Below, piece by piece: positions 36,784 through 60,400 of a stretch of 64,000 nt of DNA. Origin of the DNA: Owenia fusiformis (taxonomy: Eukaryota; Annelida; Polychaeta; Sabellida; Oweniidae); contig CAIIXF020000006.1 of assembly GCA_903813345.2 (NCBI GenBank), forward strand, positions 20,591,936 to 20,655,935, given 5' to 3'. The first letter of the stretch is position 1. Each line of letters opens with the position of its first letter. Position numbers and translations under genes: made by a program. The notes beneath the pieces are model-generated. The model searched no databases. It was not told the DNA's origin and worked only from the letters and a program-made list of their open reading frames with translations.

Positions 36784-39700
36784 ATGATTCACAGTTTATT
36801 TATCATCAATAGTTCGGGGTAAGTTATATATGATTTCTAAACAGATATACCAAATCAAGGTGGTGGAAATCATCAAGCAGCTTTGTCGGTGAATTTTATG
36901 ACGAAAAGCAAAAGGTTTGGTTATCGGCTTTACTTTCAAAAGTAAAGTAGGTAGTTTGGCACTAGCAGGTATAACTCTGAACTCACTATTGTGGACTATT
37001 GCTTGTTTATGGTCAACTTGCGGCTATATTACTCTAAGTAAATGTCCTTAAATATGTTCATAATCTCTCGGAATATTTCAAGTTTAAGGTTCAGCTGGAA
37101 AGTAACATTTTGGTAAAAAATTGCTATACCTGCACATGTTATTTTCTGGTACATAATTAAGTATGAAGGCATGTGTGTATTTCCTTGCTTTTTTCAGGAA
37201 AGTATCATTACACTGTCTATTTTTAGTAAACCTGGAAACAGGTCAATGGTAGCTCCTGTGTTGTCTGGAAACTTTGAAAGAAAATTTGGAAAAACAGGAA
37301 GTGTGAAATATCAGAATTCCCTGGAGTTCCCTTTGAATGCCTACCAGATAATCTAAAAGAAGACAATGTAATGATAGTTTCCTGAAAAAAGCAAGGAAAT
37401 TGATACATGCCTTCATACTTTATTTTGTACCAGAAAATAACATGTGCAGGTACAGTGCTGATATATAATAATTAAGGGTGCGTTTTCAAACTAAACAGAG
37501 TGCTCCTACCAAAATGAATTTGCCTACATACCCCTGAGACTCTTATCTGATAGATAGAATGCACAAATAAAACAAAAGTTTTGCTCTTATAGGTAAAAAG
37601 TTCTCTTGAAATTTCGAAATGATTTTACCTGTTAATTCTGTCCTTGGTCAGCCATTTTTGCGGAAGTTACACTGAAACGGAAACTCCATGAAACGAAACG
37701 AAATCAGAAAAAATATGGCACACATTGTGCGCATGTGCAGCAAAGTTTAAACCAATCATATTATTTGATTTTTTTGCGCACGTGAATTATTTGCTTCTGA
37801 GCACTTACAAGCTTACCACAATAAACAAACCTGGCAGAGACTACCCTTAGCCTACTTCATTTTGGGAAAATTTCAGCTCAAACTCGTGACAAATGCATAA
37901 TGCATACGCTGGTGTGAAGCCTTGGAGACACTTATTTTGGTAAATATGATTTATGGTGTATACTTTTCTGCAGTTTGTGGGAGTTTGGGACATTAAATGT
38001 TAAAATTCAAGAAAATATGCCAATTAAACGACTGATCAATTTTTTACCAAAATGTTACTTTCCAGCTGTACCTTAAAAATTTTTGCTCAAGTGCGCCAAA
38101 TGTGAAATCTGATTGGTTGGAATTCCTGGGAAAATACTTCTGCACTCATTTTGACCCCCTGGAAATTTTTGAAAACTGAACCCCCCTTGGCAAATCCTGG
38201 CTACGGGCCTGCAAAGTCACCGTCAGTGTGTTCTTTAAATAGTTTATGAGAGATCTATGAAGAATAAGGTCTTCAATGATCTTCCTGCAATTTTTTTCGT
38301 TTTTTTAAACATTTTTATACTGTCATTTTCTGGAATTGGAGCATAGCATTGTTGGGTGAACAGAAGGGTTGTCCCATTTGATACCAACTCCATACATACA
38401 TAGACATCCCTCTGACCTGGAACTGATTCACGGTGTATCTGCTGCTCACACTGCTCTGGTGATAATCAATGTTTATTACTGGAAAATAGTCAGATCAGTT
38501 GTAAAAACACAATGTTTAAAAAGCAGTAGAAACACAATAGAAAATAATTATTCCTTGGGACTTTGGGTTGTTCATAAATCCAGAAATATGTGACCTCAAA
38601 GGAAATACGTCCTGTCGGTCATTATTATTTGTTTACCCTAGGGGTCACAAATGATATTTCGAAGATGGTGGGAAGTTCAAAATTTGCAGCTAAATCAATG
38701 ATATTAGACAATTGTGCTTGGGATCGTGTTATTTTTGGGCACCATTTTGATGATAAAAAGTAAGGTGAGTTTGCCCTTTACAAGAGGTGAGTTTGTATCG
38801 AGTCCGCTCGTGTCTGCAGTATTTTTTTCACAAAATCAAAATTTTATCAATTTTTAAAATGTTGCAAATGATACGCGTCTCGATTCAAAGCATGACCGTC
38901 ATCTTGACTGATGAAAACAGCAATTTTACTGATTATTGCGCTTCATTTGTAAGAAAGTATTGAATATGATTTGGCAAATTTTGAGAAACTTATTTTTTGT
39001 TATTTTACCACAATCAGGAAAAGTGCGAAACTAAATCATACACGGAAAGTACTAGGAGTACAGTAATCCTTGAGTTCATTCTCCTGTAACAATATTTAGT
39101 ACATGTACTTTGATTTTGCTGATTTTAGTTTGTTTTGTATTTTTCAGGGATGTCTTCATGGAGAAGCACTGGAAAAGTGTCATTAATAGATCGATCTGTG
39201 ATTATTTCTTCGAGGCTCAAGGCAAGGTGAGATGTCAAGTCATTTACTAATTACTATGGTCATATTCCCAGGGATGAAAAATGTAGAAAATACAAATAGC
39301 AATTAAAGGTAGGATCACATAGATAGGGGTTGACAAACTATCTACCATCTCAAATACAGGGTGTATATTATCTACCAAAAAGATCAGTACTGCAGTTACT
39401 TATTAAATTGTTGAAGCTGAGAGCTAAATGTTTTGTTCATAGAGAAACTTCTACTCTATAGATTAGTCATTTTTAATGTGATCACATTCATATTTCTAAG
39501 TTTCCTTATGAGCACTAAAATATTGTCTCTTCAACTGATTAGTGTTTGGCATTCAGTATGAAAAATCTAATAAGATCACCTATTGATAGGGACATGTTGT
39601 ACATTTTTTATCACAGTAATCTGATTGGTTGGTCACCGTTTGAGTTTGAGTACCGGGAGTACAGAGTACTGAATACAATCATATGACCAAATCAAAATGC

Positions 39701-42700
39701 TTCAAAATTCCTAGACATGTGATAAAATCATCATCACACATTTCAGCTTATGTGATACAGGAAATATTCCACTCGGGTGACAATGTAGCATACCGTTCAA
39801 GCTTTGCTTTCTTGAATGATACAGTATTACCTTTCACATAATATTTCCTGAATCACATGCTGAAACATTTGATAACTGATATTGTCCTTGTTAAAGCAGC
39901 CGTGTATAAAAGGGGCTCGGGGGCTCATACAAGCCCTCCCCCTGATATTTCCTAAAAAATGGTTTAACATGGGAAAAATATTTTTGTGTGGGGGTGCTTT
40001 GGGGATTGGAGCGAATCAAGCCCCCAGCTGGCTACAGGCATGTAAAATATTGTGAATATTTGCAGGCTGGAACACCTGAGGATGTCCCACCAGTTATACG
40101 TACCCCCCATCACTATCTCATAAATATCTACAGAAATCAACTCTACTTTGTTGCCGTAGTTACAACAGAAGGTAAGCGAGGAATTAATTCAGATTAAAAG
40201 TTAGGAATTCTTTATGTAATTTAATAATTTTAATAATTCTTAACAGCATGAAAAACTCATTTTTATTACATCATAAAAATTTTTACTACTTATTGTAATT
40301 TTGTGTTGATATTAGAAATTCTGATCCAAGTAAAAATCTGTCAAAAATAAAAATAAAAAGCAGCATCCCATGTAGACAGTGAGTAAGATGTGGACTTTAC
40401 TATTAAATAATAATGTGTTTTTTCAGTCCCTCCATTGTTTGTGATTGAGTTTCTACATCGTGTGGTAGAAATGTTTGAGGATTATTTCACGGAATGCACA
40501 GAGTCCTCTATTAAAGAAAATTATGTTATCGTGTATGAGGTAGGAATTTGAAAAATTTAAAGTTAACTATCTGAGATGCTTTTCAAAAATATTCTGTAAA
40601 CTTAAGAAAAATAATGTAGAGTAATTGCTCTTTTTAATTCAGAAATAAAGTGCATATCTAACTTTGACAATAAATGTACAGTAATATATTACCTGGGATT
40701 AGCAAAATACAGATAAAACCTTGCATTTTATTCCCTTATTTGGCTTTTGACTATGGATGCATGTTATGTTTTTCCTTAAATGGTCTTAATAACAAAAAAT
40801 CAATTGTTTTGTTCTGCTTCCCATGTTAGCTCTTAGATGAGATGTTAGACAATGGATTCCCCTTAGCAACAGAGTCTAATATTTTAAAAGAATTAATAAG
40901 ACCCCCAAACCTCCTCAGAACTATCACCGACACTGTCACCGGCAAATCTTCTAAGTAAGTCATTGCAAGACTCAGTGTGATGTCACAAGTTTATATTGTG
41001 ATGTCACAACCCTGCATTCATTTGTTTTGTCACATGCTTGACAAGTTGTGATGCAACAAATTGCAGTTGGATTGAGTTCAGCATGTTTATTCTATGTTGT
41101 TTGTACATCCTTTATAGGGGTTTGTTTAACATTTATTAATATTTTCTCTTTACTTTTAGTTTTTACAGTAATCTTTTTATTTTATTCTATTTAGTTATGC
41201 ACCTTGTCTGCTTTTATATTTTGTTATACAGGGTGACTCATAAATTTAGTTGTTGAATTATAATACAGTTGTACTAGATTTTGTGTCACCCTGTAGCATT
41301 TTTGCTTATGGTGGTTACACAGACCTTGTAAAATATCCGAAATGGACAATAATATTCTCCTTAAAATGTTGCATATTTGATGATTTTGGATTGAATAAAT
41401 AAGAAAGTGTATGTAAACCTGTGAATTGTTTCAAAAATGGAACTTTAATGTTGAAGTTCATTTAAATAATTCTAATAAGAAATTGCATAATGGAATATTC
41501 AGGACCAAATGGTATATTTTGCACAGGTCCATCACACCTATATATTTATTAATATTTTAATTTTCGATAATTTTAATAAATCCTAAAATACAATAAAATA
41601 TGTATAGTGGACACTGTTCAATACGTTTTGTTGAGGATAATTTAAGGAATATGTACTGGTTATCTATGCACCATTCAGTGGTATTCTTGGGACCCCCATG
41701 TAGGAAGGGCTGGGGAGTTGATAAAATAAAGATTGGATGTCATATTCCCTATCCAGAGAGTAACCTAGTGATTGAATCTCCCCACCCAGGGAGCAATAAT
41801 AGCTGGTCAAATATAGTAAAAGTTCTGTACTCAAGGAACGAAATACTCTGTCAAAGTCCCATTTCCTGGGAAAATATTACATGTCAAATTCCCAAAATTT
41901 CCCACTTGGGGTCTCACTCAAACCTTTGTATTGTGCATTTAGTGTTCACTAATACAGGTTTTACTGTATATTATGTTTTTGGCTGCTGTTCTGCACATTT
42001 CTGTTGTACTAATTGTAACTAATTTTATATTCAATAGGCAATATTGCTGTTTGCTTAATGACTATTTATTTGCCCCATGGAACACCATTGTCATATTTCA
42101 AATTTACTTATGCTTGCTAAAGGTTGGCCCTGACAGATGTTTTATTATTCCCTGCTCTGTCCAATTTTAAATGCTGATTTCCAAATATTTTTTACAAATA
42201 TTAACAGCTTATGGAGGAAATGTTGGATAATGGGTTTCCACTTATGATGGAAAACAACATGCTAAAAGACCTGATTAAACCGCCATCTATCTTGAGAAGT
42301 GTTGTAAGCACTGTGACGGGTCAGTCAACTACGTAAGTGCCACCTATAGGTAGATTATGGGAACCCGTGGGGTACAGGCCTGGTTAAAATTGAGTTGATC
42401 ACAGAACAAAATAGTCCCTGGATAATTTTTTTTCTTGCAAATATATGAATGAGTTTCATTCTGTGAGCTGTGTTTTCATTAACCAATGAATAAATTTTTT
42501 CTATTAATTCCTTTTTTGGGCAAGTGGAATCTACTTCCAGAAACACACAAAATGCATTAATCTTAATATGAATTGACGTCGATATTTTAACCCCTATATC
42601 TTTGTTTTTCCAATTCATGTTGATTTTAAAAATACATTATTATTTGGTTCTGGTGGCTTGGTTTTGGGCAATGCAATGCTTTATGGGTTAGTCTTCTCCC

Positions 42701-45700
42701 TGTAGGGCAGCTTTTATGATATTCAACCAGATTTGGGAATTAGCCATATCATATAAAAACTTGAAATGCCTTTGTTGTGTTTTTCTCAATTTTTATATGT
42801 TACATTGTGGGGTTGGTGCTCACTAGGGGATAGGTGCCTAATACAATGTTAATTGTATATATAAAAGTCCAGTCTAATAAAAACAATTTGCAGTTGACAA
42901 AAAATAGTTATTTTCAAATCTGCATGGCTACATAATTCTAATTCTCTTGTTCTGTACTTGAGCACAAATTTTGCATGTTGTGTAGCATGAATGTCTGTAG
43001 CATATTTCACCATGTTATGCTTTCATTGATGTGACTTTCTGACATGCTTCTTGATATAATTTGCAAAAATGTCACTTTTTATTTCAAAATTGTGTAACTG
43101 AAATAAATGTTGTGGAAAAATAAGAGAAGTTTGTCTTATATAAGAATCACTGGAATGGGAAAAAATATGAGTTCACAAATTGTTCTCTTTAAAATAAAAT
43201 TATATTTTTGCAAAAGTGACTACAGTAGGTATTTCTTAGGTGTTGTTTGCTTTTATGTAAAATTAAAAAAAACATTATTTAATATAATAAACAGAGAATG
43301 CATTCTGAGATAGAAAAGTAGCTTTAATGACATATTCTTAAAAATCCATGTCAGAAAGTAAACGTCATGACAACATGGCAAATTGTAGCAAATAAGTATG
43401 TCTAATCTCTAACTTTAGTACACTATACTAAATGCACCATTACCAAAATCCAAATTCTATCTTGTAAAATTTAAAAGTATACAATAAAATATGATTTTGC
43501 ACTTTTATAAATTACGCTTCTCTGAATTGTGTCATTAGACGTGGAGGTAATTTGTTATATTGTGAACACCATAAATTTACTGTGTAAAATTTCATCTTTG
43601 TATCGTTTTTTCATCATTGTTTCATCATTCTGTAATTCTCATCATTGTATCATTTTTATAACCATCAGCATATTGGCTGAGTTGGCTCAGTATGTCATTA
43701 AAGTATGACATAACTTTTCTTTTGTCATCATTGTTAATACAGAAGTAGAAAATTTTCATCATTGTATAGGAGAATGGAAGTATGTTTGAGAATGGTCATC
43801 ATTTTTTTTTCTGATAGTAATTATTATTTCATTAGATAATGGTCATTATTGTATTGGAATCCTATTTTTCATCGTTTTGACCATTGAATAAGAGCATTTT
43901 ATCCTTGTATTTGCTCATTTCACAATTATTATCATTGTTCGATAATTCTCTTCATTTAATTCAAAAATTGTCATCATTTTATTTGGTCATCATTATGTTT
44001 ATGTTTTTTTTTTATCTTAGCTTTGTTGAAGAACGCTACTTTGTTGAGTTCAGTGAGTAAGTAACACCAAAGAAATGTCAAGGTGACCAAAAATGACACG
44101 GTGGCTAAAGATCGGAATTTGAAAATGTTTGTTTAACATAGAGATCATCACGCCCAGTGATCAGAAAAATGGGATGGAGGGGAGCAGGCAATTTCTGCTA
44201 GAAAATTTAACAAAGCGGAAGATTCATTTTTTCAGGAGAAGTTTAATTTTATTTAATTGCTGAATGGATAGGCACACAGTATATGATAAAATATGTTAGC
44301 TCTTCTAGGGTTTTTTGAATCAATACATTTCTGAGATATGAAATCTATTAAAAAGGCGTAAGGCCACCAACGTGCATATGTCAATGTTTTGCCATAAATC
44401 AAGCAACAATGGTCTACTATGGCATTATTTTTGCTTCTTTATTCGTTAAATTCAAATATATTTGATATATGGAATATCTATATTCGCTAAATCAATTATC
44501 GTTCGGTAAAAACATTTATATATTTGTAACAGCGAATTAAGTTTTCAAAAAAGCCAATGGATTAAATCCCTTAATACTATGTGCATTTAATTACATATTT
44601 TATTCACTAAATGATATATGTTTTGCGTAAACTGTTATGGTATTCCTTAAGAGTAATACATATATGCGTAATACCGAATTTCTATTTGAACCCTTACCGA
44701 AATAAGTTAGTCTATATTTACCAAATGATTTATTTTTTAATAACAAAGTTAATGCTTTTTACCGAAAGCTAATTTGCTATTTACCGAATGCAATAATTAA
44801 AATTAAACCAATATTCGATAAGTTTCGTTGATGTTCGATATTTTGTAACATGACCTCGAGTTTTGCAAAATGGCCGCGCAGCTATTCAACATCGTTTTCA
44901 TATATCACGTGACTGAAAGTCTCGTAAAGTATCGAAAAATAACGATTTATCGAATGTGGCATTCGGTATTTACCGAATATAAATAAGTTAAATACCGAAT
45001 GTATAAATAATCAATTGATTTATACGTGCGCTAAGGAAAACAAATTGAATCGCTGTATCAAACAAATACATTTGTATAGATATCAAAAGTAATTGCCAAC
45101 ACAAAGAACAAGTGAAACTGTTCAGCGAATATAAATTGTATCAATTATTATTTTCGATAAAATAAAAAAACATTCGATAGATTGGGTGAAGGTTTGGTTA
45201 ATTGTTTGTTTTATTTGGTATGTATGGAATATTTAATGTACCGAATAAAGAAGCAGTTTAAACACCATAGTCTACATGACCTGTAATAAATACTTGTAAA
45301 TGACATAATCGTAACAAAATTAATGCCATTGCTGACTTTATGAAATGACTTTCCATACACTGTATAAAAAAGTAATAGAAAATAATTAAAATGGGATGGA
45401 GGGGGAGGGGAAACTTTCTAGCAGAAATTGCCTGCTCCCCCTCCTTCCCATTTTCCTGATCACTGGGCGTGATCATTACATTTGGTTGATATTTTTAAGG
45501 AAAGTATAAATTCTTATTTCCATCTTGGCATTTTAAAAAGCAAAGATTTTTAATGCGACGCTGTGGTATGTTAAAACTACGCAGCTTTTTAACGCTTCAG
45601 CTTTCTAATTGGTCAATTTCCTGCAGATTTGAATTAAAAAAGGTATTTGATATAATGATATTCATACATTTATAACATAGAAAAACAATGACAACTTTTA

Positions 45701-48700
45701 TGAATTTCAGTTTAAAATGTTAGTTGAGCTTGCAGTTAATTTTACAAATAATGTTAAAACTGTAGGATTTGACTATTCACTCCTTTTGTTCCCAATTAGG
45801 TCATAAATTAACACATTAAAATCGACTGCATGGCATTGTATACATTTTGTAGACAATTAATACTTCTTGATAATGTACTTGTACTAATTATAAAGTTAAT
45901 GAATTAACTTTCACAACTGATTACAACAATGAACAAAGTTCTGCAATACATGACAAAGTTTCTTTTATATGTCTACTCACTGAGTTCAAAATTCAAACAA
46001 AAAATGGAGAAATTTAATTTCAAGTGCACAATTCTAAATATGTAACATTAACTAACATATAGTCTTCAATTTATGAAAAATATATGATTGGTGCCTCTAG
46101 ACTATTGTACTAAAGTTACTGTGTGCAAGTATTCAAGGGCGGACTTCAATCCCATAAGCATCTTTTCATAGTACAGATTTTAAAGGTGCTAATGCATTAT
46201 GGGATTGGGGTACATCTTGTGCTTTAACTGATGTGTGATTTGCTTTTCCACTCTAGAGGGCTCCCTAACCAGCTAACTGATATGATCACTAGGTCAAAGT
46301 AAGTGTCCATCTTGGGAAGCATATCCCATAATTCATAGTCTAGCTACAAGCCCTTATTACTCCCCCCATTACTCACCACCACTGTTGTTGAGGTAGATAA
46401 GGAGGGGGGGTCAAAATTCTTGAAGCAAGACTGCATTCTTTTAAATATTTACTCTTGTATTCTTCTTGTTCTTTTTACTATTTTGAGGAATTGGATGTTT
46501 ATTTACATTTTAGCCTTATTATCATTATTTTATGAAAAGGTTATTCCTTATTATGTAATTAGTCATCAGAGTCAACTATGAAAGATGAGTTTCTGCTTTA
46601 CCCACAATTTTAATGCTAGAGCTACACTTTTACAGCTTTTGGCACCTTTACAACTAGCTTTAGTTTTAATTCTCTCGTTTTATTTTTACTTTTATTTAGA
46701 TAGATTTTCATGTATACATATATAAGCAGGCCTAGAATATGTATAATTGAAGGCCCAAATAACTAGATACTGTCTGCATTAAGGGCCTAGTACATACATT
46801 AAAGAAAGCCTAGTACATGTATGCATTAAGATAGTTACATGTAAAAAAGGTCCAAGTCTAATAACTCATTTCACTGAGCTATATTCTCACTTAGCCTGTC
46901 TCATAATATGCATAACTTTACAGTCTTACATTTAATCACTCTATGCATTCTAATTATATATATCTACTGTAACCTAATGCAATAAAACCTGTGTAAGTGG
47001 AAAACCTCTCTTACCTCTAAAAAGTGTTCTACTTTGCAAGTGTTCAACTTAGGCAGGTTTAATTAACATAAGGTTGATGGGTCATTCCACTTACAAAGGT
47101 GTTCCACTTATAGACTTTTTCCACTTAGTAGTTTTTACTATAATATTTTACAATTCTAAAAAGTATTGTCTTGTTTTCATTTTAGCCATAGCACAATTAA
47201 AGTTCACTACTAATTTCATATTAAGATTTTCTCAGGAATCTAAAATAGTGAATCTTAACTTTTCAGTGTCAGTTCCACCCTTCCTACAGGGCAACTTTCC
47301 AATGTGCCATGGAGAAGAACGGGAGTGAAATACACAAACAATGAGGCATATTTTGACCTGATAGAAGAAATAGATGTAATACTAGATAAATCAGGGTCTA
47401 CAGTTACTGCAGAAATCCAAGGATATGTGAGTTATTGTGTATTTTTCAAGAAATAGGTTGATGAAATTTAATGGTTTTCAATCAGTATCCCATTTAACAG
47501 GTGTTAAAGATCCTTAATTTTGACTATTATCAGTTACTTGTTTTATCATCCTATCTCTTAAATTTTGTATATACAGTTTGATTCTTGGAAAATTAGATTT
47601 TCATTATAAATTAGATATTCATTTCTGTAATTTATTGTTTTACAGGTAGACTGTCTGATCAAGCTAAGTGGGATGCCAGACCTGACACTATCATTTGTTA
47701 ATCCTCGTCTTCTGGATGATGTCAGCTTTCATCCTTGTGTTCGATTTAAGAGATGGGAGGTAGGGCAGACTTTGCTGCATACATTATTTATAAGAATCCC
47801 CATATATTGATGTCACATATTGATGATGCATTTGATTTTGCCCCATTCTGAAAGCCAGTTCTTGTGGATTGGGTTGTCTTATACTTTTAGCTTGCATCCT
47901 TCTCTCACTATGATTATGCGTATATGCCATCACAGGCCCATAGCCTGGGGGGTGGGTTTGAAGAAATTCTGAAAAATGAGCCTCAAATTTAATAAAATCA
48001 GGAAATGTCCCAATTTTTCAGCAGATCACAGGGTTTGAACTCCACCTTTTAATTCATACCACACTGGAAATTTCTGATTATTGGCCTGCATCAGCTGGTT
48101 AAATAACTCTGCTTTAGTACCCTTTAATCATTGCCAATTTCTGAGTGCCCCACCAACATTGCCAATTATTATCTTACAGAGTGAGAAGGTGTTATCATTT
48201 GTGCCACCAGATGGCGCTTTCAAAGTGATGTCATACCACATAGGAGCTCAAAAGTAAGAACTCTTCCTTCACAATAATAATTTATGCACATTATAAACAC
48301 AATACAGAGGAATTAGCAAGGAATAAAGTGAACAGGCCTCTACTTTTGTCTGACACTTAATAAGAAGTCAAGAAAGTCAATTACTTTAGTGAAAGTAGTT
48401 CAGCAGTCCATTTCAATGAAAAAATAATTGAGTTATTGGCACTTAATACAATTTGATCCAGAGCAAAGAAAGTAGTAACATCATTATGTGAAAATACGTA
48501 ACATATTTATAATTGTTCATTTTTTATGTAGTTCCCCTTCATCTTCTTGTTGTAGTATGGTAGCCATTCCAGTGTATTTAAAGCACAGTATTCAATATAG
48601 AGAGGGAAGTGGGGGACGTTTAGATATTACAGTGGGACCACGACAGACTATGGGGAAAACAGTAAGTTTATTAGTACATACTCTGATAAATTCATGTATC

Positions 48701-50158
48701 AAGGAGCACATTCAGTTTGAACACATCCTTTATAGGACATTATCCTTTAGCTGGGAGTTTTCCGACAGTCTCTTAATAGGCATTTGAATTGATTCTAGTA
48801 TTCAAGACCCATTCAATTCATAAGAGAAAGTTTCTAGAGAAATGGCACCTTTTTTCAGCTATTTTTATGCTTTATTTATTTTTATTTTTTCAGGTAGAAA
48901 ATGTCTCCCTCGTTATACCATTCCCAAAGGCAGTGTTAAATGTTACTTTGACACCAAATCAAGGAAAATACTCATTTGATCCCGTATCTAAGATTATGAC
49001 CTGGGATGTCGGCCAGATAGATACTAACAAACTTCCAAATATAAGAGGAAATGTAAGTCCAGTTGCTTATGAAAAGATTGCATTGATGGTGTCTCAATGT
49101 ATCTCAAGGGTCTAGAAGAATAAAGTTAATTTTGTTAGGAAGGAGGGGGTTACTGAAAATAAAATGTTGATCAGAATTTTTTGATTTTTATGTCATCACC
49201 AGAAAATGGGAGACATATGTTATAGTCTCCAAATTTTTTGTGGATGATGTTTGATGGTCAGTTGTTGGTGTTTGGCATCTGTAACAAATGGCAGGTGGTG
49301 ACATTCTACATGTTAATGTCATGTTTTCATTTTAAGAGGGGAGTGGGAATTTACTTGATTTTTTCACAACTGATAGCATTTGAACGCTGTCCTTTAATTG
49401 TAATTATACTTGTATTATGATCAAATTAAGAATTTCAATTTTTTTTATTTCATTGAATAGACTTATTTGCGGATAGTGATGGATCAGGGATGTCTATATC
49501 ACGGGTGTTAAAACACGAATATACCATGAGCACATGCTTTGAGGATCCGCATTGTTTGAACCTACCGCCGAGCACACTTATACATTAAGACCCGTTACAC
49601 AGTCATGATACCGCCGAGCAAGCTCATTGCATCATCGGGTCTGCTTTACCCCCGTGTATGTGATATGAATAATTTATCAAAATGAAATAAAATTTCAGAT
49701 AAACTTGCAAACTGGTCAGCCTGTCCCCGAGAGCAACCCAACTATATCTGTAAATTTCACTATATCACAACTTGCCGTCTCTGGGGTGAAAGTCAACAGA
49801 TTGGATATGTACGGAGAGGTAAGAACAAAATTTTGCAATTTACTTTGTACATGTATTGATTTTTCTTTGCTTTATTTAGCTAATATTATCTTAAGTAACT
49901 GTTGGACATTTCTTTTAACTTAACTTATCACATGTATCAGAGATACATTATATTAGAATGGTGTAATATTGCTGTACTAAGGGGCAGTCCTAACTGTAGT
50001 GACATCTTGTTATATCCACCATTTTTGTATCAAATTGTCACACTGCAACCGGGTTGTAATATTTTGTCTTGTGAATTCCTTGTTTATTTCAGAAATACAA
50101 ACCATTCAAAGGAGTGAAGTACCTTACAAAGGCAGGGAAATTCCAAGTTAGGACATAA
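36784..50158 (+). CDS. AP3M1: AP-3 adaptor complex subunit mu, complete 12-exon gene
   Basis: This gene encodes the medium chain of the AP-3 adaptor, which recognises tyrosine-type sorting signals and sends cargo from endosomes or the trans-Golgi to lysosomes and related organelles. I joined coding exons at 36784-36818, 39148-39226, 40066-40171, 40427-40539, 40830-40954 (or 42208-42332), 47267-47426, 47646-47759, 48180-48253, 48556-48661, 48894-49052, 49699-49818 and 50093-50158. All introns are GT-AG and every phase matches. The total is 1257 nt, or 418 residues, the length I recall for vertebrate mu3. The start MIHSLFIINSSG lies in a good ATG context (ccaccATG). A longin-like domain covers about residues 1-140. 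The mu-homology domain begins near PWRRTGVKYTNNEAYFD and ends with LDMYGEKYKPFKGVKYLTKA and a C-terminal GKFQVRT. Identity to animal mu3 proteins is obvious by eye. No frameshift is present. Family and function are very secure; the 5' UTR and transcript ends are not. Confidence 0.97.
37083..38077. mobile_element. 995-bp TIR element in AP-3 mu intron 1
   Basis: The ends are imperfect inverted repeats of about 38 bp (tttaaggttcagctggaaag and its complement ending at 38077). A second inverted repeat is nested inside at about 37130-37452, with ends acctgcacatgttattttct and arms of 80-100 bp. No transposase frame is seen. Confidence 0.7.
40830..40954 (+). CDS. AP3M1: AP-3 mu exon 5, version A
   Basis: This 125-nt exon lies between ...gttag and gtaagt and ends in phase 2. 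It encodes LLDEMLDNGFPLATESNILK followed by ELIRPPNLLRTITDTVTGKSS. It covers the end of the longin domain and the linker to the cargo domain. Its first half is the closer match to the vertebrate sequence as I recall it (LATESNILKELI). It splices in frame from 40539 and to 47267, where the AA left over plus T makes Asn. Confidence 0.93.
41229..41293. mobile_element. 65-bp TA-flanked micro-element
   Basis: The ends CAGGGTGACTCA and TGTGTCACCCTG are inverted and bordered by TA on each side. It looks like a mariner-type MITE reduced almost to its termini. It lies between the two alternative AP-3 mu exons. Confidence 0.55.
42208..42332 (+). CDS. AP3M1: AP-3 mu exon 5, version B (mutually exclusive duplicate)
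   Basis: This is a second 125-nt exon 1.25 kb downstream of version A, with the same phase, its own acceptor (ttaacag) and its own gtaagt donor. It encodes LMEEMLDNGFPLMMENNMLK followed by DLIKPPSILRSVVSTVTGQST. The frame is intact and most changes are conservative, so it looks selected rather than decayed. Because 125 is not a multiple of three, including both versions or neither would shift the frame, so the two must be alternatives. The final AC plus T from exon 6 makes Thr instead of Asn. Confidence 0.9.
43590..44000. repeat. Degenerate 'tcatcattgt' low-complexity tract
   Basis: Phrases of the type tcatcattgt and atcattatt recur through about 400 bp of the AP-3 mu intron after exon 5B. 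It appears to be an old, decayed simple repeat. Confidence 0.6.
44145..45475. mobile_element. 1.3-kb inverted-repeat element with accgaat-rich core
   Basis: The arms of about 70 bp read atcacgcccagtgatcag and onward through a gggatggagggg/gagcaggcaatttctgc block, with the complement at 45395-45475. The roughly 800-bp interior is rich in taccgaat, attcggta and ttcgata words on both strands. No coding frame is seen. It lies in the AP-3 mu intron before exon 6. Confidence 0.65.
46978..47130. repeat. Dispersed 'ataaaacctgt..gtgttc' repeat
   Basis: The phrase 'aataaaacctgtgtaagtgg' and following gtgttc/ccactt units resemble sequence at 2957-3080 (aataaaacctgtcttagtga) and near 24840-25030. It is a short internally repetitive dispersed element. 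Confidence 0.5.
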
Positions 50159-50673
50159 TGATTAATAAGAAAAAAGATGATCAAAGGAAGTAAAATATAG
50201 AATATAACTCTACTAAAAAATTCTCATTCTCCATCAGCAAATGTTTGTCTTTCATGCTGCAGAGAGAGGATGTGGCAGATATGTTGATGCATTTGGAGAA
50301 TGAAAAATGAGAAATTCTAGCAATTGATGTCTTTAGTCAGATATAGATGGAACATTAAGATTTGTAACTTTCACAATAGGGTGGTTAAGTTACAGCCAAG
50401 TAAATAGTACAAATGGGAAAAATTATCCACAGAGAACCATAATTCTACAAGTTTACATAAAAGTTTTTTTTAAAACGTGTATCTTAACCTCCCTATTATG
50501 TTAATAAATGTCCTGGTCAATATATTGGACATTTAGAATATCATTCAAACCAAGGGTCAGGGAATTAACTCTAATAATGTTCATTTTCATGTAAAACAAA
50601 AACTTGCCAATTTATAATTAGAAAAATCTTAATGCAAAACCTTTGCTTACATATATGCATACTTACCTACGTT

Positions 50674-51040
50674 CCTGCATGAGGAATCACTCCCCAAGAA
50701 CAAGGATCAAAGGATTGATTTATCCATTTGAAGAAATATACATTGTAGTTTATTCTGATACATCCTGCATGAGGAATCACTCCCCAAGAACAAGGATCAA
50801 AGGATTGATTTATCCATTTGAAGAAATATACATTGTAGTTTATTCTGATACATCCTGCATGAGGAATCACTCCCCAAGAACAAGGATCAAAGGATTGATT
50901 TATCCATTTGAAGAAATATACATTGTAGTTTATTCTGATACATCCTGCATGAGGAATCACTCCCCAAGAACAAGGATCAAAGGATTGATTTATCCATTTG
51001 AAGAAATATACATTGTAGTTTATTCTGATACATCCTGCAT
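50674..51040. repeat. Four exact 90-bp tandem repeats plus a partial fifth
   Basis: A 90-bp unit beginning cctgcatgaggaatcac starts at 50674, 50764, 50854 and 50944, with a seven-base start of a fifth at 51034. The copies appear identical. Because 90 is divisible by three, the array stays open on both strands (about 138 codons plus, 133 minus), which looks like a 30-residue repeat protein but is better explained by the repeat itself. It lies about 0.5 kb after the AP-3 mu stop codon. Confidence 0.95.
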
Positions 51041-51554
51041 ATGGAGAATGCACATGTAGACATGCCATTTGGTGGATAGTATCTCTTTAGTTTTGGGATA
51101 TATAATGTAACTATTGTATATATTATAAAATGAACCTATATGTAATTAATGATAATAAGTGGTCTGTATACCAAGATGTTCTGTAGATATACTGTAGATA
51201 GTCAATATATGGAATGGATCTATGATAACGATAATTGCAATAGCATTGTAGTTAATTACTTGACTGACACTTGTCTTGACGACTGTCAATAGGGAAGGTA
51301 GGGGGCATAAAACAGTGAATTCAATTGTGAATTACAAAGAGAAAAAAGAAGGTACAGAATTATGAAGATTAAAAATAACAAATCAGAGAATTACAACAAG
51401 ATAAAAAAGCTTTTTTGAAGAGAAAGAATAACATAAGTTGGATCAATGTACATGCACAATGTACAGTTGTAGTGTATTTGAAATTGGAAGTGTGTACTTT
51501 TAGTGAATAACACCACCATATGTACATTTCATCTGCCTGTCATCATATCAGTGC

Positions 51555-57457: not shown

Positions 57458-60400
57458 CTATTCATAATCAAATTTCCAAGAACAGCCCTCCATTTTTTCA
57501 GCAAAACGTTTATCAAACTGCTCACTCTGATTGACGGTGAAATAGTTTTTCCAGTCGCCAACTTTCCCCTTTCTCATGAACTCACTTTTGCTCAAGTCGA
57601 ACCATTCTTCAAATCGGAAATTTGTATTTGGGTTAGCTTTCATTTTGTCGAAGCTTGATTCAGTTGCAATTTTTGCAACAGTGTTTTCATCGAGTTCCAC
57701 ATTAAGAAAAGTGGCAACATCTTTAACAGATTTGAATGGATTTTTGTGCATGTCTTCATAAGTTGTTAAAAACATTTCAGAGAAAGTACCATCCTGTTTA
57801 GCATTCCAATACTGTTTTATGTGATCAAACCAATTTCCCCATAGTAGGTAACCGTCGATATACATTTCGAAAAACTCATTCCAAGTGCCTTGGAAATTAT
57901 AAGTTTTATCCATTCGATATAAATGATAAAATGACACTGCGGTATCTTTAGGGTTCCTTGCCACATATATGACCTTGACCTTCTTTTCTGTCGTCTGCTT
58001 TGGGAGCATGCGCAATTGCAGATGGGATTTCATGCATCGTTGGGCTTCAATCGGCATATCTTTAAGTTGCTTATATTCACCGTAGAGTTCTAAGAATGGT
58101 ACTCTCTCATGTATTGGTTTTTCATTAGCCTTGTCAACATCCCCTTTGGCTAGAATCAAGGAGACAATTTGAATCATCCAGGTCGTTCCTGAAATCAACA
58201 CATTATTCAGATTATTATCAGATTAATTGTACATATATTTTTGATTAATTTGAATGATTTTGGTATTTTTTATCTCGGATTATTTCTTTCAATTTTCTTA
58301 TTGAGTTGAATAGAAACGCAGAACAGAATTGTTTATGGATGACGACAGAAACGCCGTTTTTACATCTAAATTCAAATGTCATAAATTCATTAATAATCAT
58401 ATCATATGGCAGCCGGAAGTTTTATTGGATATAGCATATCAAAGCCTGTCAATCTTTGAATCTAATTTGTTCCTTAGTTATTAAAAATGCTTGGAAATTG
58501 TTGAGATGTAGATGAGAAATTTGATGAATTATTTAAATCGCCAGCATAAACAAGCGTCGTATGTAATCCAAAAGAAGACTTTCACTACCGACTGACATGG
58601 ATTTGAAGATTGGCGAGTAAAACAAGACAGGGGTTTTATATGAGTTGATGTTCTCTAAATCTCGCCTAACCATTGCGTAAACAGGCGTCACCGTACAGCG
58701 TACAGCTTTCGCCATTTTGGACCACCATTTTATCGACGGAAGAATCGAGATAAGAAATATCATTGATTTTATCAACATTGGGTCAGTTCACTGCATTCTT
58801 TCGGTAAGAGAATTGCGAATATGTGTGTCAACTTCAGATGATCCACTTCAACGTGATTTTCTTGTAAAACATCAATGCACGGTGTCCAACCCAAACGCTC
58901 TTACATGCACGACAGAGCGTTTCATTACTGAAACTAAACAAAGGAACGCACCGGAGTAGGAAAATGGCGGGCGGAAATGATGAGTCGTCTGACGATCTCC
59001 CAAATAATGGGAATAAGAGGTATATGTTACTTATTTCGAGTATACCATTCGATGGGTGTGATATCCATGTTGTACTTGGCTAGCTGTTGACGTTTGAAGC
59101 AATTAGGAAGAGCTGTACAAACCAATATAGTTATCAAAATTCATAAACAATTCATATTCAAAACCCCTTTTGTCGAGACAGTTGATTAGTCGAGTCAAAA
59201 TAAGAGCATCAGAGTATATTTTGGTCAAATAACAAAGCTTTAACACACCATACATTATCGTAATTGTGATCTCATCGAAAATCCAGTCTTAAAAATGATG
59301 ACATTCTCAGATTCAAGAAACGCTGCGATCTGTGTGAACTGGAAACGCTGCGGTACTAGTCTAGATATGTGTAGGATCCCGGAATTAGCTTGACCTTCCT
59401 TTTCAGGAAGAGAAGGAAAAGATCTATTAATACCCCTTGGCATCAAAAGAAAACAGATTAATTCACATTTAAACTTTTTGTTTTTTTGTCAATAGTTCAA
59501 ATATGTTTTAGCACACATGAAGGCAAAACATCATCTAATGTAGGCTTAAAATCGGCTTGTTGCACGTGTAGCATCACCAGGTTGGGAAGTTTCAATTTGC
59601 CTAACAAGTACAACACGTTTTTGAGAGATAGATTCGATTCCGAACTCTTCACTAATAATCTGAATATAATATCAAAACAAAATGGTAACAGCGTTTCTAA
59701 AAATGTATCCAAAATCGATGGAGCGTTTCGAGGAAAACAAGCGATTTCTCGAGAACAAGTGATGAATTTGGACTGGGATTTTAACAAATGAGAATATACG
59801 AGTTTTTGATCTACTATTTTGACAGAAAGATTGACGTTTTCATAGTAAATACAAATTTTATTCGTAATTTGTGGTCAATTCGTCAACTTCAGATTCGTTC
59901 GATCTACACTACGGAGCTTTGATCAAGCACATAACAGTTTACCACCAGAAGTTGAATAAATAAGATCTTTGCTCAGGTTATAGTTCATCGAATGGTACAT
60001 AATATGTCACCATAACGTACGATATGTAAGAGAAACGAGTGAAACAATACGTACGGCCATAGTGGGATCTTCATTAGCCGCCATTTTATTTCGCTCCGCA
60101 GCGTTTCCGTGTGAATGAAACGCTCCGTTAGTTGTGCATGTAAGAGCGTTTGGGTTGGACACCATGAACATACATGCCCATACCGTCAGCTGTCTGTATT
60201 TTTTGCCTGAATTTCACAAAATCCTCGCTAATTTTTGTTTTACTCCGTAGATAACAGTAACATAACGAATAGCAGATCTTATTATACAGAGAGTTTATGT
60301 CAACCTGACTTTCATTTTGGATGTTATTACAATAAACAGATTCTGTACGGTGACGAGGTGACCTTCATGCTAAACAGAGGCATTTTATATGTCTCTGTGC

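Follow-up and report, generated by a model that had tools for sequence, protein, structure and literature searches.

The AP-3 mu gene of the annelid Owenia fusiformis carries two versions of its fifth exon, A (LLDEMLDNGFPLATESNILKELIRPPNLLRTITDTVTGKSS) at 40830–40954 and B (LMEEMLDNGFPLMMENNMLKDLIKPPSILRSVVSTVTGQST) at 42208–42332, both on the plus strand of the window, i.e., the whole 64,000-nt stretch of DNA that was analyzed. The observation is real, and the explanation that accounts for it best, in which we place considerable confidence on the strength of the sequence, is that exon 5 was duplicated in tandem and that the copies have been kept as alternatives, so that the gene would encode two protein isoforms. 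We base this reading on three properties: the splice sites and reading frames of both copies are intact, both copies are constrained, and only splicing of a single copy yields a full-length product. The pair belongs to a known class of event, in a gene that is new for it.

The gene is complete in the window, extending from 36784 to 50158 on the plus strand, and has 12 exons, the fifth in two versions. Exons 1 through 4 lie at 36784–36818 (including the start codon), 39148–39226, 40066–40171, and 40427–40539, the last being the common exon upstream of A and B. The common downstream exon 6 (47267–47426) is followed by exons 7 (47646–47759), 8 (48180–48253), 9 (48556–48661), 10 (48894–49052), 11 (49699–49818), and 12 (50093–50158, including the stop codon). 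Residues 1–244, which are encoded by the first exons and comprise the longin domain plus the start of the mu homology domain, scored 440 bits against human AP3M1 (PDB 9c58_M) and 115 bits against the best AP-1 mu. Searching the genome with the same residues gave 11 matches, seven belonging to the AP-3 mu gene and four to the AP-2 mu and AP-1 mu genes; among the best candidates scored there was neither a second AP-3 mu gene nor a retrocopy containing a spliced A or B. No third copy of exon 5 was seen when the 64-kb window was searched by tblastn with AP3M1. Downstream of AP-3 mu, just past the end of the gene, lies a tandem repeat with open frames on both strands (50622–51086). The window also holds, on the minus strand at 57458–58222, an open frame of 254 residues that we take to resemble a sulfotransferase.

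Both versions of exon 5 are 125 nt long, enter in phase 0, and leave in phase 2, and their reading frames lie between ag acceptors (ttag and acag for A and B, respectively) and gtaagt donors. The donor of exon 4 follows 40539, the acceptor of exon 6 precedes 47267, and the intron between A and B occupies 40955–42207 (1253 nt, plus strand). An earlier note on this DNA had described the coordinates, lengths, phase, acceptors, donors, and flanking junctions of the pair, and all were as described. The copies share 73 of 125 nt (58%) and 25 of 41 residues; the difference of about 17 in 42 residues claimed in that note corresponds to 16 of 41 whole codons plus a split codon (Asn/Thr). Computing the possible splice combinations showed that the frame is kept only with one copy per transcript: 4-A-6 and 4-B-6 each encode a complete protein of 418 residues, inclusion of both copies (4-A-B-6) leads to a stop at codon 166, and skipping of both (4-6) to a stop at codon 137.

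A and B are old copies and both are constrained. Chance is excluded because synonymous sites between them are saturated (pS 0.98), pN is 0.25, and none of 20,000 neutral simulations kept 25 of 41 residues without a stop; a simulated neutral copy, produced by mutating one copy with the same number of changes, retained on average 13.2 of 41. The introns flanking the two exons, compared over 150 nt per side, share a chance-like identity of 0.33. This selection test is on the pair, and the finding that neither copy looks like the decaying one derives from a comparison with human AP3M1, to which A and B are each identical at 29 of 41 residues without gaps (30 and 29, respectively, with one gap). 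In the longin end, version A matches AP3M1 at 22 of 23 positions and version B at 17; in the linker, they match at 7 and 12 of 18 positions, respectively.

The alternative that withstands these data best is that the second copy is mainly regulatory, i.e., that the frameshift produced by double inclusion or skipping would switch the gene off, with the difference in sequence being minor. Both wrong combinations do stop early, and an exon pair in the AP-3 sigma gene of the same genome encodes nearly the same peptide twice (34 of 37 residues identical), which would fit regulatory use in that gene. A pure poison exon, however, need not keep its frame and protein sequence, and B has kept both; moreover, the residues at which A and B differ are spread over the encoded segment, 7 among the 23 of the longin end and 9 among the 18 of the linker. 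We consider a mainly regulatory role unlikely, and in part it could hold alongside two functional isoforms.

Less probable by a clear step is that one copy is no longer spliced in and persists merely as the relic of an old duplication. The candidate would be B, which has the lower splice-site scores of the two: its acceptor ranks 2 and that of A ranks 5 among 38, placing B among the weaker ones, and its donor scores 5.5 vs. 8.5 for A in a scoring trained on constitutive sites, so B could be rarely used. Set against this, synonymous sites are saturated and yet both copies are free of stops and indels and have kept their splice sites, the neutral simulations did not once reproduce such preservation, and neither copy is closer than the other to human AP3M1. 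Gene conversion or an assembly error that made or misplaced the second copy can be dismissed as extremely improbable, as this genome does form tandem arrays from pieces of exons but these are short and nearly identical, whereas A and B share 58% of their nucleotides between unrelated flanks, and a single set of flanking exons surrounds both.

Frame, splice sites, and the selection acting on each copy thus lend strong support to two isoforms encoded by alternative versions of exon 5, as the earlier note had predicted; the note's suggestion that the exchanged segment chiefly contacts the adaptor core needs correcting, as the exon, past the final helix of the longin domain, encodes the linker helix of mu3. 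Specifically, exon 5 corresponds to residues 112–152 of human AP3M1, which form the end of the longin domain and the linker that leads into the mu homology domain. In the mammalian AP3:ARF1 coat, an amphipathic linker helix at mu3 139–148 is reported to give density that projects into the lipid bilayer (PMC13178560). Based on alignment and on that report, the equivalent helices would be LLRTITDTVT in version A (40911–40940, plus strand) and ILRSVVSTVT in version B (42289–42318, plus strand), which differ at 5 of 10 residues. Mean hydrophobicity of the helix is 0.57 in A, 0.66 in B, and 0.63 in human, its charge is 0, +1, and +1, and its helical moment 0.65, 0.55, and 0.65, respectively. Version A is thus predicted to combine a conserved longin end with a neutral, more polar helix, and version B a changed longin end with a helix that is more hydrophobic and carries a charge of +1. 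Given that the helical moments are similar, if slightly lower in B, the predicted difference between the helices is modest. Because the exon encodes the mu3 helix reported to project into the membrane (PMC13178560), membrane binding is the likeliest property to be tuned by the choice of exon 5.

We propose that exon 5 of AP-3 mu was duplicated in tandem long ago, that both copies were retained, and that each mRNA would take either A or B. Transcripts with both copies or with neither would shift frame, stop early, and be lost or non-functional. The swap would exchange the final helix of the longin domain together with the linker helix, the latter lying on or in the membrane in mammalian AP-3, and the choice of isoform may in this way tune membrane binding and bending by AP-3. 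Both isoforms would then be expected to be expressed, with the choice made by tissue or developmental stage and with differing affinity for membranes.

As to how exclusion might work, the intron separating A from B is, at 1253 nt, too long for steric hindrance, which is thereby ruled out for AP-3 mu. The three donors (gtagga, gtaagt, and gtaagt) and three acceptors around the copies are ordinary GT-AG sites, and there are no mixed intron types on which an incompatibility of U2 and U12 introns could act. Intron RNA pairing was unconvincing: duplex energies gave z values of −1.2, −0.3, −3.4, and −0.1, each against 30 mononucleotide shuffles, a null too lenient for AT-rich introns, and with so few shuffles we distrust the lone value of −3.4. 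Splice-site strength was discarded as a sign of regulation, the initial low scores having come from the score trained on constitutive sites; with leave-one-out scoring, the acceptors of 10 duplicated exons as a group were not weaker than those of 28 others (p 0.36). Regulated choice combined with the discarding of frameshifted products is the simplest sufficient mechanism.

The earlier note had treated the AP-3 mu pair as a single case, a view that comparable pairs in three other adaptor genes of the same genome contradict. In the AP-3 sigma gene, two exons of 112 nt each (G000:C7:24507110-24507221 and 24508068-24508179) have a pS of 0.88 and a pN of 0.03; the protein that they encode is almost unchanged despite near-saturated synonymous change. 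Exon 6 of AP-2 mu (G000:C1:28443500-28451500, minus strand) is present as copies of 139 and 142 nt, with 35 of 45 aligned residues identical, that lie only 57 nt apart. Because the next shortest intron seen in this gene is about 141 nt (a 47-codon insert) and the remainder are at least 202 nt, the gap suggests steric mutual exclusion in AP-2 mu. AP-1 mu (G000:C1:53161371-53170099) has pairs of two exons, namely a duplicated exon 7 of 143 nt (40 of 47 residues identical) and two candidate alternative last exons (exon 11; 27 of 32 residues identical), the first of which is followed by AATAAA 231 nt past its stop, a motif common by chance in AT-rich DNA. Across these four further pairs, pS ranged from 0.81 to 1.04 and pN from 0.03 to 0.13, flank identity was 0.23 to 0.36 (the AP-2 mu flanks compared include the neighboring copy), and for each pair none of 20,000 neutral simulations matched. 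The three internal pairs likewise have lengths not divisible by three. Judging from these sequences, AP-1 mu, AP-2 mu, and AP-3 sigma probably follow the alternative-exon route as well. Our mu and sigma searches found one gene per subunit carrying pairs, and no second exon copy was found in AP-1 sigma, AP-2 sigma, or zeta-COP within 4 to 5.5 kb per locus. Weak matches, which fall below the family cut-off, put AP-3 delta near C1:15.65 Mb.

The frequency of such pairs was compared with that in four control families, Adaptin_N (42 exon matches), Cpn60_TCP1 (71), Sec1 (21), and tRNA-synt_1 (33), which together gave 167 exon matches in 35 clusters. Five neighboring pairs among these overlapped by more than half on the profile, and on inspection none of the five was a full-length diverged pair: one, in a CCT gene, was a recent partial duplication with 100% identity, one was a piece of a short near-identical array, and three were unrelated peptides. 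A tblastn search for further copies of 81 of the 113 CCT and adaptin matches detected only repeats of 90–100% identity. In the test group (PF00928 and PF01217; 37 matches in 11 clusters) there were seven overlapping pairs, four of them real and three representing spill-over between neighboring exons. Exon 5 of AP-3 mu was left out of the test count, as neither copy was reported by the PF00928 and PF01217 searches, and since the profile searches missed this pair, pairs may have been missed in the controls too. Fisher tests, which were post hoc and depend on the choice of controls, gave p 0.0006 by exon (4/33 vs. 0/167) and p 0.011 by gene cluster (3/11 vs. 0/35).

As a positive control, a Myosin_head search (65 of 210 candidates scored, kept outside the 167 control matches) recovered a tandem exon array in the gene for the muscle-type myosin heavy chain, where a single motor-domain exon (TYSGLFCVxINPYKRLPIY...; G000:C9:37985500-37994900, minus strand) is present 13 times at nearly full length and once more in part. 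By its sequence, it is a very large candidate array of mutually exclusive exons, and its recovery indicates that the method detects such copies if the match to the domain is good and that large exon arrays occur in this species. When the loci and the window were each compared with themselves, repeats dominated most loci; the AP-2 mu pair appeared among the best eight pairs per locus, from which those of AP-3 mu, AP-3 sigma, and AP-1 mu were absent. The adaptin and chaperonin genes also contain short, near-identical tandem arrays composed of coding-exon fragments (C12:16563939-16567199; C6:37998245-38000849; C11:35576965-35577608; C11:134700-135800), i.e., recent minisatellites seeded by exons, which are a possible source of duplicated exons. 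A search of the genome for mitochondrial COX1 gave no match. Its 38 Forkhead matches are distributed over nine contigs which, if the first 12 contigs are chromosomes numbered in string order, correspond to chromosomes 1, 2, 3, 5, 6, 7, 8, 11, and 12, the same set as is reported for O. fusiformis (PMC9539403); for nine chromosomes out of twelve, such agreement has a chance of 1 in 220. Chromosomes 5 and 7, to which tandem foxQ2 genes are assigned in that paper, likewise carry Forkhead clusters.

The usual view of adaptor subunits is that they are invariant housekeeping components and that any variants are encoded by separate genes. In vertebrates, the paralogues AP1M1/AP1M2, AP3M1/AP3M2, and AP3S1/AP3S2 supply variants of AP-1 and AP-3 subunits. 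These are whole-gene duplicates, whereas here one gene was found per subunit, with duplicated exons, so the likeness is a parallel and not homology; by analogy, the exon pairs may work as the vertebrate adaptor paralogues do. That the worm diversifies its vesicle adaptors by exon swapping in AP-1, AP-2, and AP-3 mu and in AP-3 sigma, as a counterpart, at the level of exons, to the adaptor paralogues of vertebrates and with AP-3 mu switching its membrane-inserting helix, is a stronger and less certain claim than the two-isoform reading of AP-3 mu, and we judge its chances to be about even. If it is true, there could be up to four forms of AP-1 mu, two of AP-2 mu, and four AP-3 cores (two mu by two sigma), and if the exon pairs are used, one animal would rely on splicing to tune three of its adaptor complexes. 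In addition, the AP-3 mu pair would be a natural experiment on a helix seen only recently in the AP3:ARF1 coat, as it offers two natural versions, neither closer to the human sequence than the other, within a protein that is otherwise identical.

A search of the open-access literature found no description of the exon pairs of AP-3 mu, AP-1 mu, AP-2 mu, or AP-3 sigma. The earlier note's statement that no such case is described for AP-3 mu agrees with these searches, which covered one open-access library and do not prove absence from print. The main text of a survey of tandem duplicated exons in humans uses none of the terms AP-3, AP2, or adaptor (PMC9741552). A precedent for exon duplication across several members of one family is reported for the G-protein alpha genes of cephalochordates (PMC5896119).

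The closest known systems are exon 5 of SNAP25, the voltage-gated calcium channels (PMC9741552), and muscle myosin heavy chain (PMC3912159), with which the AP-3 mu pair shares adjacent homologous exons of equal phase, a length not divisible by three, constraint on both copies, and a protein that is identical outside the swap. It differs from known mutually exclusive exons in the gene concerned, and its exclusive use is what we infer. Within the same phylum, the muscle Mhc gene of Capitella teleta is reported to have seven clusters of mutually exclusive exons, and Helobdella robusta is described in the same source as having none of these clusters in its two Mhc genes (PMC3912159). The Capitella clusters represent the same device as that proposed here, and the myosin gene of O. 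fusiformis also has a long array. Mhc, however, is the classic exon-array gene of muscle, whereas adaptor subunits are housekeeping proteins of membrane trafficking.
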